Source: Prevotella sp.
GTDB taxonomy: Bacteria; Bacteroidota; Bacteroidia; Bacteroidales; Bacteroidaceae
DNA length: 59,103 nt
Direction of reading: 5' to 3'
Assembly (NCBI GenBank): GCA_017561825.1
Contig: JAFZBK010000011.1
Location: 1 to 59,103, forward strand
In this document: positions 4,795 to 17,716 of the stretch, one piece after another
How the letters are laid out: every line of letters begins with the position of its first letter
Position numbering within the stretch: the stretch's first letter is position 1
Translations under genes and position numbers: made by a program
Notes under the pieces: model-generated
Told to the model about the DNA's origin: nothing
Seen by the model: only the letters and a program-made list of their open reading frames with translations
The model's database searches: none

Positions 4795-6218
4795 GAAGAA
4801 GACTACTAATCGTGTTGGCCGCCTTTTGGTCGCTGACGCTTTTTGCAGAGAAGAAAGAAGTGCATATCCTGTCGGCCAACGATATGCATGCAGCCATCGA
4901 GGCCTTCCCCCAGTTGGCTGATATCGTTGACAGTCTGCGAACGCTTTATCCATCCTTGCTGGTCTTGTCAGCAGGTGACAACCGTACAGGTGAGCCGTTG
5001 AACGACCGCTACGAGATCCCTGCCTATCCCATGGTGGCACTGATGAACCAGGTGGGTTTCAATGCCTCTACCTTGGGGAATCATGAGTTCGACTCCCGTC
5101 AGAAGGGCATGGCACAACTTATCAGCATGTCGAACTTCCGTCATATATGCGCCAACATCCAGCCGGATTCCGAATGGGGAATCCATTGCATCCCATACCA
5201 GTTATTCGATGTGGAAGGAGTGAAAGTTGGTGTGGTAGGTGTTGTGCAGATCGGACAAAGGGGTATTCCTGATTCCCATCCCGATAATGTGAAGGGCATC
5301 TCCTTCCTGCCCGTCAAAGAGACGGTACAGGAGTATAAGTGGTTGCGCGACCAGTGCGACGTGACCATCCTGCTTTCGCATATTGGTTATGAGGATGATG
5401 TGGAGCTGTCGAAGGATGTGCCCTGGATTGACCTGATCATTGGCGGACATACCCACACACAACTGGATGGCGGAGAGATACACAACGGTGTCCTGATCAC
5501 TCAGAATGAAAACCGACTGAAGAAGGTGACACATACCACACTTGTTGTTGATAACGGTAAGGTGGTGGAGAAGAAGGCGGAGAATATCAATGTGCGGACA
5601 TGGCCGAAGAAGAACAAGGTGGTGGCCGACATGGTACAAAGCTTCAGTGATAACCCCGAGTTCCATCGTCAGCTGACCGTCGCTGAGGCACCTTTCAACG
5701 GTTATGAGGAACTGGGATGTATGGTCTGCGATGCCTTTATCGGTGAGACCGGTGCTGATGTGGCTATCCAGAACACTGGTGGAATCCGCTATGAGGAGAA
5801 GGCCGCAGGACCTATCACGGTGAGTGACATCCTTCAGCTGGATCCCTTCGGCAACGAAGCCGTGGAGCTGATGCTCACTGGGGATGAGTTGCGTAAGATG
5901 CTGATTGCCTGTGGAGAAAGCGACGGTTATGGATTCCCCAGGATAGGAGGAATCAAGTGCGATGTGACTTATGAAAAGGGTGATCCACAGCATATCAAGG
6001 ATCTGAAGGTTTATACCCTTGACGGTAAGAAACTCAATATGAAGAAGACCTACCGTGTGGTGACCAGTAGCTATGTGGTGTCGATTTGCGACTCTCCAAG
6101 GAAGGATCAGGGACATAGTCTGAACAGACAGACAGCCGACTTGATTATCAACTATCTGGAGAAACAGCCGAGTGTCAACTACCAAGGTATGCGACGGGTG
6201 AACCGCATCGTGAAATAA
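4791..6218 (+). CDS. Exported bifunctional metallophosphatase/5'-nucleotidase
   Basis: UshA/5'-nucleotidase family hydrolase of 475 residues, exported to the periplasm (signal peptide MRRRLLIVLAAFWSLTLFA). Metal-binding motifs are visible in order: SANDMHA (D31, H33), SAGDN (D63), GNHEFD (96-101), LLSHIGYEDD and GGHTHTQ near 217-223. The C-terminal nucleotidase domain contains NTGGIR and LDPFGN. It is translationally coupled to the small beta-grasp gene, and miaA follows after 6 bp. Removal of phosphate from nucleotides would fit the nucleobase permease nearby. Confidence 0.92.
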   Translation: MRRRLLIVLAAFWSLTLFAEKKEVHILSANDMHAAIEAFPQLADIVDSLRTLYPSLLVLSAGDNRTGEPLNDRYEIPAYPMVALMNQVGFNASTLGNHEFDSRQKGMAQLISMSNFRHICANIQPDSEWGIHCIPYQLFDVEGVKVGVVGVVQIGQRGIPDSHPDNVKGISFLPVKETVQEYKWLRDQCDVTILLSHIGYEDDVELSKDVPWIDLIIGGHTHTQLDGGEIHNGVLITQNENRLKKVTHTTLVVDNGKVVEKKAENINVRTWPKKNKVVADMVQSFSDNPEFHRQLTVAEAPFNGYEELGCMVCDAFIGETGADVAIQNTGGIRYEEKAAGPITVSDILQLDPFGNEAVELMLTGDELRKMLIACGESDGYGFPRIGGIKCDVTYEKGDPQHIKDLKVYTLDGKKLNMKKTYRVVTSSYVVSICDSPRKDQGHSLNRQTADLIINYLEKQPSVNYQGMRRVNRIVK

Positions 6219-6224
6219 CGTTCC

Positions 6225-7181
6225 ATGAGGAGGTTGATAACGATACTCGGTCCTACTGCCTGTGGCAAGACCTCTCTTGCCGTGGCTCTCGCTGCGAGAA
6301 TCGGCGGGGAGATTATCAGTGGTGATAGTCGTCAGGTCTACCGCCGAATGGATATCGGAACTGGTAAGGACTTGGATGATTATACGATAAAGATCAAAGA
6401 TGAAAGAATTGAGATTCCCTATCATCTGATCGATATCTGTGAACCGGGAACCAAGTACAACCTCTTTCAATACCAACATGATTTCCTTCAAGCATACGAG
6501 GATATCACAAGTAGGAGAGCACAGCCCATCCTTTGCGGAGGAACAGGACTGTATATTGAGTCGGTACTGAAAGGCTACTCACTGTCGCCTGTTCCCCAGA
6601 ACCCGGAACTGAGAGCGCAGTTGGCTAACAGGTCGTTGGAGGAACTGACCGCGATGCTTGTTGACCTGAAGAAGCAGACGGGCTCGAACATGCATAACCG
6701 CACCGATGTGGATACCGTGCAACGTGCCATCCGTGCCATCGAGATAGAAACGTATAACCTGCATACCCCGATGGAGGAACGACAGTTCCCGATGATACCC
6801 TATATAATAATAGGTGTGGATGTGGATCGGGAGATAAGAAGGCAACGGATTACCCAACGACTCCAGCAACGTCTGGAGGAAGGGATGGTGGATGAGGTGA
6901 AAGGACTGCTGGATAGTGGTATTCCGGCTGATGATCTGATCTACTATGGATTGGAGTATAAGTACGTCACGGAGAATGTCATCGGTAAGCTCTCCTACGA
7001 CGAGATGTTCCGTCAGTTGGAGATTGCCATCCACCAGTTTGCCAAACGACAGATGACGTGGTTTCGGGGCATGGAAAGACGAGGATTCAAGATCCATTGG
7101 CTGCCCGCACCGTTCCTTCCTGAAGGAGGGGGGATGGAGCATGCCGTGGATCATATCATAGATATTCTAAAAACTCAATAA
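6225..7181 (+). CDS. miaA: tRNA dimethylallyltransferase
   Basis: Adds the dimethylallyl group to A37 of tRNAs reading UNN codons. The protein has 318 residues, normal length. The P-loop GPTACGKTS is at residues 9-17, followed by ISGDSRQVYRRMDIGTGK and FCGGTGLYIE-type motifs (LCGGTGLYIESVL near 105). The C-terminal half carries the MVDEVKGLL and FAKRQMTWFRG motifs. Bacteroidota often have two miaA copies; this may be one of a pair, which cannot be judged from the window. It sits 6 bp after the metallophosphatase and 1 bp before the next gene, so it is within an operon. Confidence 0.95.
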   Translation: MRRLITILGPTACGKTSLAVALAARIGGEIISGDSRQVYRRMDIGTGKDLDDYTIKIKDERIEIPYHLIDICEPGTKYNLFQYQHDFLQAYEDITSRRAQPILCGGTGLYIESVLKGYSLSPVPQNPELRAQLANRSLEELTAMLVDLKKQTGSNMHNRTDVDTVQRAIRAIEIETYNLHTPMEERQFPMIPYIIIGVDVDREIRRQRITQRLQQRLEEGMVDEVKGLLDSGIPADDLIYYGLEYKYVTENVIGKLSYDEMFRQLEIAIHQFAKRQMTWFRGMERRGFKIHWLPAPFLPEGGGMEHAVDHIIDILKTQ

Positions 7182-15056: not shown

Positions 15057-15080
15057 ATTAATAATTGAAAATTGAAAATT

Positions 15081-16454
15081 ATGAAAACTATTTGTTTATA
15101 TTTCGAGATACATCAGATTATTCATCTGAAGCGTTACCGTTTCTTTGATATCGGTGCAGATCATTATTACTATGATGACTACGAGAACGAACGTAGCATC
15201 ACGGATATAGCAGAACGTTCGTATATGCCGGCACTGACGGCACTGCAGGAGATGATTGCCGAGCATGGCAAATTCTTCAAGGTGGCCTTCTCGCTGTCGG
15301 GAACAGGTATCGAACAGCTGGAGATGCATGCTCCGCAGGTGCTGGAGAAGCTACAACAGCTGAACGAGACCGGTTGCGTGGAGTTCCTGGCAGAGCCTTA
15401 TAGTCATGGTCTTTCCGCCCTTGCCAATGAGGAGTGCTTTGCAGCAGACGTCAAGAAGCAGGTCTCCAAGATGGAAGAGTACTTCGGTAAGAAGCCCACC
15501 ATCCTCCGCAACTCCTCGCTGATCTATAGTGATGATATCGGTGCGCAGGCTGCCGCCCTCGGCTTCAAGGGTATGCTCACCGAAGGTGCCAAGCATGTGC
15601 TCGGATGGAAGAGTCCGCACTATGTTTATAACTGTGCCCTGGCACCGAGTCTGAAACTGTTGCTGCGCGACGTGGAGCTGTCTGACGATATCTCCCTGCG
15701 CTTCAACAACAGCGAGTGGGAAGGCTATCCGCTCTTCGCAGACGACTATATCAAGCGCATTGCCAACTTCCCCGAGGAAGAGCAGGTCATCAATATCTTC
15801 ATGGAGCTCTCCGCATTGGGTATCGCCCAGCCGTTGAGCAGTAATATCCTGGAGTTCCTCAAGGCACTGCCTGCTTGCGCCAAGCAGAAGGGCATCACCT
15901 TCTCCACACCTTCTGAGATCTGTGGAAAGATGAAGAGCGTAGGTGCGCTCAACGTGCCTGACACCTTGTCGTGGGTGGATGAGGAGCGCGACGTTTCCTG
16001 CTGGCTCGGTAACCCCATGCAACGGGAGGCTTTCAATAAGCTGTACAGCATTGCCGATCGTGTCCGCATCGCCAATGATCCGCGAATCAATCAGGACTGG
16101 GACTACCTGCAGGCTTCGAACAACTTCAGGTTCATGACCACCAAGCCCAGTAATGTGGGTCTTGACCGTGGTATCTATGCCAGTCCGTTCGATGCGTTCA
16201 CCAACTACATGAACATCCTGGGTGACTTTATGAGTCGTGTTCGTGGTCTCTATCCAGAAGATATCGACAATGATGAGCTGAATGCCTTGCTCACCACCAT
16301 CAGAAACCAGGGTGATGAGATCAACATGAAGGACAAGGAGATCACTCGTCTGCAGGCAAAGGTGGAGAAGATGCAGGCAGAAGAGGATAAGCTTAAAGCC
16401 AAGATTGACAAGGCTAAGGCTGCCTCGAAGAAGGCTCAAATGTTAAAAAATTGA
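15081..16454 (+). CDS. GH57-family alpha-glucan hydrolase/transferase
   Basis: A 457-residue protein of glycoside hydrolase family 57. The start MKTICLYFEIHQ matches the family's first motif (an HQP-like region near residue 11); the upstream in-frame TTG at 15072 lies in an ATTGAAA tandem repeat and is rejected. VEFLAEPYSHGLSAL and the catalytic-region block around LGFKGMLTEGAK also fit. A C-terminal coiled coil of about 55 residues (ITRLQAKVEKMQAEEDKLK) is present. It is the third gene of the glycogen operon and probably acts as an alpha-amylase or 4-alpha-glucanotransferase on glycogen in the cytosol. Confidence 0.9.
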   Translation: MKTICLYFEIHQIIHLKRYRFFDIGADHYYYDDYENERSITDIAERSYMPALTALQEMIAEHGKFFKVAFSLSGTGIEQLEMHAPQVLEKLQQLNETGCVEFLAEPYSHGLSALANEECFAADVKKQVSKMEEYFGKKPTILRNSSLIYSDDIGAQAAALGFKGMLTEGAKHVLGWKSPHYVYNCALAPSLKLLLRDVELSDDISLRFNNSEWEGYPLFADDYIKRIANFPEEEQVINIFMELSALGIAQPLSSNILEFLKALPACAKQKGITFSTPSEICGKMKSVGALNVPDTLSWVDEERDVSCWLGNPMQREAFNKLYSIADRVRIANDPRINQDWDYLQASNNFRFMTTKPSNVGLDRGIYASPFDAFTNYMNILGDFMSRVRGLYPEDIDNDELNALLTTIRNQGDEINMKDKEITRLQAKVEKMQAEEDKLKAKIDKAKAASKKAQMLKN

Positions 16455-16507: not shown

Positions 16508-16584
16508 ATCTCATTTTATGGTTTCGCCTTTTTCACGAAACAACAAAGAGGTTGACTGCGTCCTGCAGACAACCTCTATTTTTT
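16508..16584 (+). ncRNA. Small RNA candidate, about 75 nt
   Basis: The region between a consensus promoter and an intrinsic terminator. It contains a small 5' hairpin (GTTTCG ... CGAAAC, 16520-16540) and then the terminator hairpin. The only reading frame (ATG at 16518, 25 codons) runs through the terminator and is not convincing. It faces, tail to tail, the cobalamin-riboswitch transcript on the other strand. The existence of the RNA is inferred from signals only. Confidence 0.5.
16547..16584 (+). terminator. Intrinsic terminator, probably bidirectional
   Basis: AGAGGTTG pairs with CAACCTCT (16547-16554 / 16570-16577). An inner CTGC/GCAG helix follows after a symmetric A-A mismatch, and ATTTTTT comes after the stem. 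On the minus strand the same stem is followed by TTTGTTGTTT, so it could also stop transcripts from the riboswitch side. It may also terminate the glycogen operon. Confidence 0.85.
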
Positions 16585-16593
16585 GCTACAAAT

Positions 16594-16948
16594 GAAAAGA
16601 GCGATGCTTCACGCACCACTCTTTCCACCTAATAAACTTATATAATAATACACGTACGGTTAGATAAATAACTAACGATTGCTATTCTCTTGTACCTATA
16701 CAACATCCCCTAACTGCCTGGCGGTAGGATCGTTGCTATTCAATTATTTCGGGTTGCCTCCATCCCTTACATCGAGAGAGTCGGCGAGTTACATAAGGCA
16801 GGTCTTCTGACTCTGTTCCACCCTCAAGCGCCTTCCCGCCGATGGCAGTGGCTTATTGCTTGTGGGTATAATGGAACTTACAGCTGCGGGACAGTCGGAG
16901 ATTTCCACTCCATTCCCTTTTTAATCGCGTCTGTAGCGAACCTTACGA
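16594..16948 (-). ncRNA. Orphan transcript carrying a cobalamin riboswitch
   Basis: Proposed transcript from the minus-strand promoter at 16952-16982 to the hairpin at 16594-16625 (GAAAGAG...CTCTTTTC). It is about 350 nt and contains the riboswitch in its first half. The second half has no convincing protein gene: the best frames are 7 and 22 codons. Downstream on this strand lies only the antisense of the GH57 gene. The extent is inferred. Confidence 0.5.
16794..16945 (-). promoter_or_regulatory. Cobalamin (B12) riboswitch
   Basis: Read on the minus strand, all core elements are present in order: P1 5' strand UAAGG; GGGAAUGGAGUGGAAAUCUCC; GACUGUCCCGCAGCUGUAAG; GCCACUG; CGGGAAGGCGC; and the B12 box AGUCAGAAGACCUGCC, closed by CCUUA, which pairs with the 5' UAAGG. 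The aptamer binds a cobalamin and controls downstream expression in cis. Unusually, no B12-transport or B12-dependent gene follows it in this window. Confidence 0.92.
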
Positions 16949-16951
16949 CTG

Positions 16952-16982
16952 CAAAGTTATAACGAAAATGCGAATAGACAAA
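16952..16982 (-). promoter_or_regulatory. Promoter of the cobalamin riboswitch transcript
   Basis: On the minus strand, TTTG (16979-16982) and TAACTTTG (16952-16959) are spaced by 19 bp. Transcription would begin at about 16948, directly before helix P1 of the riboswitch. Confidence 0.82.
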
Positions 16983-17116: not shown

Positions 17117-17716
17117 ATGGACAATCTGAAAGGTATGACCGACGAAGAGTTGGCCTTATCGTATGTTGGAGGAAACAATAAAGCATTTGATTTACTGCTC
17201 TCACGCACACAATCAAAGCTCTTTTCGTATATCTTATTCGTGGTGCATGACCACGATAGGGCTAATGATGTCTTCCAGGAGACATTTGTCAAGGTGATCA
17301 CAAAGCTTCACCAGGGGAAGTATGTGAACAGTGGCAAGTTCTCTGCCTGGTTGATGCGTATTGCGCATAATGTGATCATGGACTGGTATCGTGATCATCG
17401 TACGGAGAACATTGTGGAGCCGAACGAAGAGAACGACCTGTCGAACATCTCCTCAAGGGATCTGATGGAGGCGAACGTGGAGAACCAGTACGTCAACGCA
17501 CAGGTGATGAATGATGTCACACGGATGATGAACCAGTTGCCACCCACCCAGCGTGAAGTGGTGTACATGCGTTTCTATCAGGATATGTCGTTCAAGGAGA
17601 TTGCTGAGACGACGGGCGTGAGCATCAACACATCATTAGGTCGTATGCGCTATGCCGTGATGAACATGCGCAAGATGGCACGTGAACATCAGATTACGCT
17701 CCAATTGGAGATGTAA
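17117..17716 (+). CDS. RNA polymerase sigma factor, sigma-70 family (ECF-like)
   Basis: A 199-residue sigma factor with region 2 (residues about 20-95, including FSYILFVVHDHDRANDVFQETF and FSAWLMRIAHNVIMDWYRDHR) and region 4 (about 130-185, LPPTQREVVYMRFYQDMSFKEIAE with the helix-turn-helix). It lacks regions 1.1 and 3, so it is of the alternative/ECF type. No anti-sigma gene lies beside it; the next gene on the plus strand is the trp leader. It has its own consensus promoter. The target genes are unknown. Confidence 0.9.
   Translation: MDNLKGMTDEELALSYVGGNNKAFDLLLSRTQSKLFSYILFVVHDHDRANDVFQETFVKVITKLHQGKYVNSGKFSAWLMRIAHNVIMDWYRDHRTENIVEPNEENDLSNISSRDLMEANVENQYVNAQVMNDVTRMMNQLPPTQREVVYMRFYQDMSFKEIAETTGVSINTSLGRMRYAVMNMRKMAREHQITLQLEM

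Follow-up and report, generated by a model that had tools for sequence, protein, structure and literature searches.

The cobalamin riboswitch on the minus strand of the window (the whole 59,103-nt stretch of Prevotella sp. DNA analysed here) is probably the 5' part of a B12-responsive, trans-acting Prevotella small RNA that would repress mutA, the gene for the small subunit of the B12-dependent methylmalonyl-CoA mutase, at low B12. Shortly before its proposed terminator the putative RNA carries an invariant 20-nt motif (UACGUGUAUUAUUAUAUAAG; 16656-16637, minus strand), which we propose as the target-pairing seed on the basis of its conservation in the genus and of its complement in mutA 5'UTRs. 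The first-pass annotation had described an orphan cobalamin riboswitch with no gene behind it, which our analysis confirmed, and had suggested a vitamin-controlled small RNA, an idea that appears to gain support from copies of the layout, from the motif and from the matching sites in B12-pathway mRNAs; the motif itself was absent from that description.

In an Rfam search of the window, minus-strand positions 16960-16780 matched the cobalamin model over its full length (RF00174, model positions 1-189 covered), and the score of 106.7 bits, well above the gathering threshold of 31.5, places the element in the cobalamin riboswitch class and bears out both the complete aptamer and the coordinates given at first pass. 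It was the only Rfam match in the window at or above the gathering threshold. The promoter (16982-16952, minus strand), read from the sequence, consists of TTTG at 16982-16979, a 19-nt spacer and TAACTTTG at 16959-16952, boxes that we take to be the Bacteroidota -33/-7 consensus; it abuts P1, as had been claimed, and its position predicts a transcription start near 16946, at P1. Boxes of the form TTTG-N17-23-TAnnTTTG lay upstream of 77 of 93 leader-type motif loci, with one mismatch tolerated in the first box and no shuffled control. Directly 3' of P1 a short hairpin, CUCUCGAUGUAAGGG (16778-16764, minus strand), with similar post-P1 hairpins in related loci, is probably the P13/L13 kissing hairpin of the expression platform, its kissing role being presumed.

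Downstream of the 20-nt motif, AAAGAGUGGUGC-GUGAA-GCAUCGCUCUUUU folds into a hairpin with a GUGAA loop and a U-rich tail (16624-16595, minus strand), which was not reported by a simple terminator scan and which we propose as the intrinsic terminator of a small RNA gene of about 355 nt (16946-16590, minus strand). Minus-strand ORFs of at least 20 aa in or behind the aptamer comprise one of 39 aa that lies within it and others of 22, 31 and 23 aa, so that the statement that no credible reading frame follows the aptamer stands, and a locus with its own promoter and terminator and without a credible ORF has, as far as sequence can tell, the features of a trans-encoded small RNA. Past the terminator the minus strand holds nothing but the 3' end of the plus-strand GH57 gene (15072-16454; PF03065, E 9.7e-54), again as first described, and a second hairpin at 16547-16577, read from the sequence, is probably the terminator of that convergent gene. 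The riboswitch thus has no same-strand gene before the GH57 gene that it could control in cis, such control being usual, though not strictly defining, for cobalamin riboswitches. Upstream, and divergent from the RNA, lies a conserved neighbour, an ECF sigma factor gene (17117-17716, plus strand; TIGR02937, 89.9 bits). The genome that contains the window (88% complete; window contig G000:C26) has one further cobalamin aptamer, directly before an ORF that we call TonB-receptor-like by position and length, without a family search.

A search with the 199 nt of DNA behind the aptamer matched one sister genome, G094, over almost its full length (195 nt at 88%); in many other genomes it gave short matches downstream of cobalamin aptamers, centred on TACGTGTATTATTATATAAG (window 16656-16637). 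The 20-nt motif was present, with at most two mismatches, in 36 of 100 sampled genomes of the genus, against 2 of 100 for the reversed control. Among 251 genomes of the family, 17 of which belong to the genus of the window by our own count, matches with zero or one mismatch were restricted to that genus; at two mismatches, 18 of the 234 genomes of other genera had a match, equal to the reversed control (counted by hand). Public genomes held at least 120 places with an exact 19-mer, and 72 of 80 listed match titles, by our own count, were Prevotella or Prevotellaceae, P. koreensis, P. communis and one X. ruminicola MAG being among the 80. Among the 120 matches listed, 104 lay downstream of a cobalamin aptamer as assigned with regular-expression anchors, at a distance of no more than 300 nt in 88 cases and of 0.3-6 kb in 16, and the other 16 had no aptamer in the fetched flank; one of these, in a Clostridium MAG, was taken as a chance match. 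Rfam found the aptamer in all 18 loci chosen from these matches.

Several other functions for the motif and its surroundings were considered and set aside. A small peptide encoded around the motif was rejected because the reading frames differ, or stops lie nearby, between loci, and the AUG-UAA in the loop GAUGUAA is not kept as a codon pair, since related loci read GAUGCAA, GGUGUAA, GAGUAA and GAGGACA. Pairing of the motif with the 3' strand of P1 (CUUAUGUA) as a switch was not conserved; as for a B12-controlled terminator ahead of the motif, terminator-like hairpins stood there in 7 of the 24 related loci, against an expectation of 1.25, and none did in the window. Predicted accessibility, which was barely higher in the motif than in the remainder (0.44 vs 0.39), is a weak argument in its favour.

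The motif occurred in four kinds of layout, and in most of the loci examined it was followed on the 3' side by a hairpin, often with a GNRA-type loop; the scans for hairpins, locus classes and sigma-factor neighbours were crude, and the count of GNRA-type loops (74 of 125 distinct motif loci) comes from a naive scan that misses bulged stems. The first kind, type (a), comprises RNAs like that of the window, with the motif mostly 120-260 nt past the aptamer. The 28 listed rows of type (a) count one contig twice and take in two loci that have an ORF of receptor size; 17 of the 28 lack any same-strand ORF of at least 150 aa that begins with ATG 25-300 nt past the motif. A similar divergent sigma-factor ORF was found in 11 of these 28, and among those 11 the next ORF was convergent in 8, absent from the flank in 1 and on the same strand, at least 197 nt beyond the motif, in 2. 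No receptor gene followed the motif in the sister genome (G094, L126) or in a near relative (L171), and the earlier suggestion that the locus is what remains of a lost btuB locus thus found no support; type (a) gives the impression of a long-standing locus without a gene rather than of a recent loss of btuB. In an X. ruminicola MAG (L113) the aptamer scored 72.1 bits and was followed after 56 nt by the motif; a hairpin was also present, and the next gene was convergent.

In type (b) the motif lay mostly 51-58 nt past the aptamer and before a gene that is TonB-receptor-like by its N-terminus and length. In these btuB-like leaders the 3' end of the motif could form base pairs (AUAAGUC/GACUUAU) with the 5' strand of the terminator as a possible antiterminator and, since the motif precedes the terminator, it would be present in short and long RNA alike. 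In type (c) the motif precedes a gene of 132-133 aa, for which no Pfam match was found in L097, the one copy searched. This protein (..VVYDSCQA.EEIADKLGAE..), encoded after motif and terminator at L097 6198-6593, had similar counterparts in L098, L104, L124 and L129. Type (d) has the motif inside or at the end of aptamer-headed operons; among 17 cases examined, the aptamer lay 3.3-5.4 kb upstream in 9. In L119, a locus of this kind, the aptamer was identified by Rfam, and the one operon searched with Pfam (L112) encodes a TonB receptor, a CbiK-family protein and a second TonB receptor. In L096, L112, L114, L130 and L138 a second TonB-receptor-like gene overlaps both motif and hairpin in its signal-peptide codons, in frames that differ by species, so that the RNA element seems to dictate the first residues of the protein. 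The sense motif likewise forms the first codons of cbiK (MKYVYYYIS..) in L119 (5027-5842; PF06180), L042 and L043. Prevotella communis L099 carries two divergent, back-to-back cobalamin aptamers, at 5973-6157 on the minus strand and 6225-6412 on the plus strand.

A search with the complement of the 3' half of the motif led to the 5'UTRs of mutA and lctP. The pattern ACTTATATAATAA..ATG matched in 57 of the 100 genomes, against 11 for its reversed control, and the places listed included 24 before mutA and 6 before lctP (counted by hand). The same 100 genomes contain 67 mutA genes, in 66 genomes, and when the last 80 nt before the AUG were scanned, runs complementary to the motif of at least 10 nt were found in 50 of the 67 and of at least 12 nt in 37; the corresponding counts for runs of at least 10 and at least 12 nt were 0 and 0 for the sense motif, 1 and 0 for the reversed motif and 0 and 0 for the unreversed complement. 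All 51 mutA sites of at least 9 nt ended 5-26 nt before the AUG, and 46 of them lay downstream of a TAnnTTTG box. For comparison, 2.5% of 907 other 5'UTRs from the fetched loci, and 6.3% of an AT-rich subset of 221, had a run of at least 12 nt, a control that is biased upward because many of these loci were fetched for carrying the pattern. Outside the genus, mutA was present in 39 of 46 chosen genomes, from which 30 loci were returned and 29 parsed, with one set aside; among the 29 a run of at least 10 nt occurred once and one of at least 12 nt never. For the longest divergent ORF across the mutA intergenic region the count was 0 of 35 countable cases, some of which may not be genes, 32 of the 67 mutA loci having no countable divergent ORF. 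In the genome of the window, mutA (PF01642) forms predicted duplexes with the window RNA of -17.9 kcal/mol (mutA-1) and -14.5 kcal/mol (mutA-2). The two mutA-like genes of this genome (G000:C33:1687-1956 and G000:C17:128426-128689) have 5'UTRs that match different parts of the motif.

The motif and the mutA site also tended to occur together. mutA was found in 34 of the 36 genomes with the motif, being absent from two, and in 32 of the 64 others (Fisher p 2.5e-6, phylogeny ignored); among genomes at least 90% complete the counts were 17 of 18 with the motif and 16 of 34 without it (p 7e-4, phylogeny likewise ignored). Among 40 riboswitch tails from 22 mutA genomes scored as motif-negative, 7 showed a variant motif with a hairpin, and two further variants were found in L031 and L301. 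With phylogeny again left out of account, a mutA site of at least 10 nt was present in 32 of 35 cases with the motif, in 9 of 9 with a variant and in 9 of 23 where no motif was found; these last 9 of 23 mutA genes, which carry a site with no motif to match it, are at variance with the proposed model. One variant, AACCGAAGUGUAUUAUAUAAG, is common to five genomes, and the mutA sites of this clade end in AUUUCG (4) or AUUUCA (1), which pair with CGAAGU or part of it. Mean duplex energies followed the same division, at -17.4 kcal/mol for variant RNA with variant mutA and -12.4 for variant RNA with other mutA, and at -13.6 kcal/mol for other RNA with variant mutA and -15.8 for other RNA with other mutA. 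In a set of 40 genomes, some of them represented by the motif copy in the operon or in cbiK, the average was -16.7 kcal/mol for cognate duplexes against -14.9 kcal/mol (permutation p 5e-5, phylogeny ignored). Comparison of genomes thus shows a family of putative RNA genes that share a conserved proposed seed, and complementary target sites that are specific and covary with it, as would be expected of a base-pairing small RNA.

Other candidate targets were also considered. Among the 120 matches listed, only two (L120 and L196) lay antisense to the start of an ORF of at least 150 aa within 70 nt, and both precede an OAD_gamma gene (PF04277), which in L120 is followed by biotin-carrier and OAD_beta genes and at which the L196 stretch ends. 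We infer that the L120 operon corresponds to the oadG/methylmalonyl-CoA decarboxylase operon of X. ruminicola. lctP, for which 38 stretches were looked at and 10 set aside, had a complement of at least 10 nt in 13 of 28 parsed genes and a sense match in none, and would be a weaker candidate target than mutA. The FAD-linked oxidase gene divergent from lctP (L223, L224, L226, L231, L234) showed complements of 10-12 nt in 5 of 15 parsed loci, and in 3 of the 15 the match was to the other half of the motif (TAATACACGT, from the 5' half). PduO cobalamin adenosyltransferase, chosen from the X. ruminicola paper discussed below, was rejected as a target, a run of at least 9 nt being present in 1 of 29 parsed loci (1 of 30 having been set aside). 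A 14-nt stretch complementary to the motif lies 52-53 nt upstream of the start of a DUF3417 (glucan-phosphorylase-like) gene (L292 and L284); this site was seen in the window's own and the sister genome only, and most other places of the 14-mer CTTATATAATAATA fell within coding sequence and were taken as chance.

A published B12 response bears on how such an RNA would act. In X. ruminicola KHP1, B12 raises mutA and mutB transcripts and proteins (log2FC 1.3-1.7), mmdB, mmdC and oadG at the mutAB locus are slightly raised (log2FC <0.8), and mmdA and a second mmdC are not raised (PMC11575231). There oadG belongs to a putative operon with methylmalonyl-CoA decarboxylase subunits that adjoins mutAB, and none of the four KHP1 riboswitches lies near the mutAB, mmd or oadG genes (PMC11575231). 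Its authors stated in 2024 that the mechanism acting on mutA was not known and that riboswitches were seemingly not directly involved, judged the mutA effect to be minor and named indirect routes, including propionate itself (PMC11575231). They also reported that six genes behind one KHP1 riboswitch were among the seven most changed, a passage in which the direction is not given, and that the cobalamin adenosyltransferase is induced by B12; in their introduction, cobalamin riboswitches are said mostly to lower expression on binding (PMC11575231). If the riboswitches that head the transport operons are such OFF switches, the copies of the motif late in these operons would be made at low B12, and together with the higher expression of mutA in the presence of B12 this argues for an RNA that is made at low B12 and represses mutA.

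Transcription of the gene-less RNA, repression as its sign and its switching by B12 are accordingly proposed here as a conditional scheme. When B12 is scarce, the RNA would extend to its terminator and display the 20-nt motif just before it; the motif would pair with the mutA 5'UTR, and because the complementarity ends just before the AUG we argue that translation would be blocked. The same block is probable for a decarboxylase operon that belongs to this pathway and may, in some species, extend to the lactate genes (lctP and the divergent FAD-linked oxidase). With ample B12 the RNA would not be made in active form, whether through premature or Rho-dependent termination or through B12-dependent RNA stability, and the propionate branch would be expressed, the whole amounting to a B12-sparing response. 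The reverse arrangement, in which the B12-bound, terminated RNA is the active form (as in SreA) and pairing raises mutA at high B12, would also fit the rise of mutA with B12 (PMC11575231) and a pairing of the motif 3' end with the terminator 5' side in btuB-like leaders, by which termination would free the motif. We regard it as unlikely, since pairing 5-26 nt before an AUG usually blocks initiation and since the copies at the ends of, or between, genes of riboswitch-headed operons are expected at low B12, provided that the riboswitches concerned act as OFF switches.

Much less probable still is that the motif is a DNA operator at which one regulator binds both the B12 loci and mutA. The mutA site does lie between promoter and start codon, a place compatible with a repressor, and in X. 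ruminicola mutA transcripts, not proteins alone, rise with B12 (PMC11575231). However, the orientation of the site is fixed (antisense in 50 of 67 mutA genes and sense in 0 of 67), a hairpin stands 3' of the motif in most RNA loci examined, the variant clade pairs with bulges that a fixed operator would hardly allow, and the match in the FAD-linked oxidase gene is to the motif's other half. That the motif is part of the expression platform only, an antiterminator without action in trans, is more doubtful again: the possible antiterminator pairing in btuB-like leaders is in keeping with it, but the same motif also occurs between genes, within cbiK codons and where operons end, and the mutA complement is found mostly where the RNA is. 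A decaying btuB remnant, to which the absence of a gene behind the window aptamer might point, can hardly be credited when aptamer, promoter, motif and terminator are intact, the layout is kept beside the same sigma-factor gene elsewhere and the same genome has its other riboswitch directly before a TonB-receptor-like ORF (so called by position and length).

The repressing small RNA that we favour has partial parallels in known systems. RyhB-type sparing RNAs respond to a shortage signal by repressing enzymes that use the scarce cofactor, as proposed here; RyhB itself is Fur-controlled and Hfq-using, whereas the window RNA would itself sense its ligand. EutX of Enterococcus is a non-coding RNA gated by a cobalamin riboswitch, through which a B12-dependent pathway is expressed only with B12. 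The first-pass annotation had drawn this eut analogy, which holds for the riboswitch-gated RNA and fails for the target: EutX and its Listeria counterpart Rli55 sequester the antiterminator EutV via ANTAR elements and belong to the eut locus, whereas the window RNA carries a 20-nt motif complementary to mRNAs and has a sigma factor gene and a GH57 gene as neighbours. In the account consulted for Listeria, Rli55 is likewise a non-coding RNA under a cobalamin riboswitch, by which a B12-dependent pathway is switched on only with B12, and AspocR is a B12-riboswitch RNA that also lowers a B12-dependent pathway without B12, in this case as a long cis-antisense RNA to pocR, whereas the proposed targets of the window RNA lie elsewhere in the genome (PMC8079631). 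The same account describes SreA and SreB, Listeria SAM riboswitches, as riboswitch RNAs that pair with a 5'UTR in trans (PMC8079631). SreA is a leader terminated by its ligand that regulates the operon behind it as well; the window RNA lacks such a gene in cis, and its action would fall at low ligand, while the related btuB-like leaders do have a gene to control in cis. Listeria therefore already offers B12-riboswitch-gated RNAs in Rli55 and AspocR, and a trans-acting riboswitch in SreA, on the evidence of that account (PMC8079631). Our literature search, which was mostly outside subscription journals, found no report of a base-pairing, B12-gated RNA aimed at methylmalonyl-CoA mutase.

Taking the layouts together, we lean, with rather less assurance than for the window RNA itself, towards a portable cassette made up of the 20-nt seed and a terminator whose loop is often of the GNRA type. 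Attached to cobalamin riboswitches across Prevotella, the cassette would serve as a dedicated RNA without a gene, lead transport genes, stand in the 3'UTR of an operon or between its genes, or lie within signal-peptide codons, and it would form a B12-sparing regulon setting the succinate/propionate balance through mutA and the decarboxylase operon. The small RNA of such a regulon would carry its own ligand sensor and have a seed that is repeated in several of the regulon's transcripts, and the regulon would supply the connection that is missing in rumen Prevotella and Xylanibacter between B12 and the expression of mutA. With a candidate regulator, a seed and target sites named, the question of B12 and mutA left open in 2024 (PMC11575231) becomes testable. 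In the rumen, propionate formed through the succinate pathway, which depends on B12, ranks among the major products and supplies glucose production in the host, and if our reading is true a gut microbe could tune a propionate-making enzyme to its vitamin supply.
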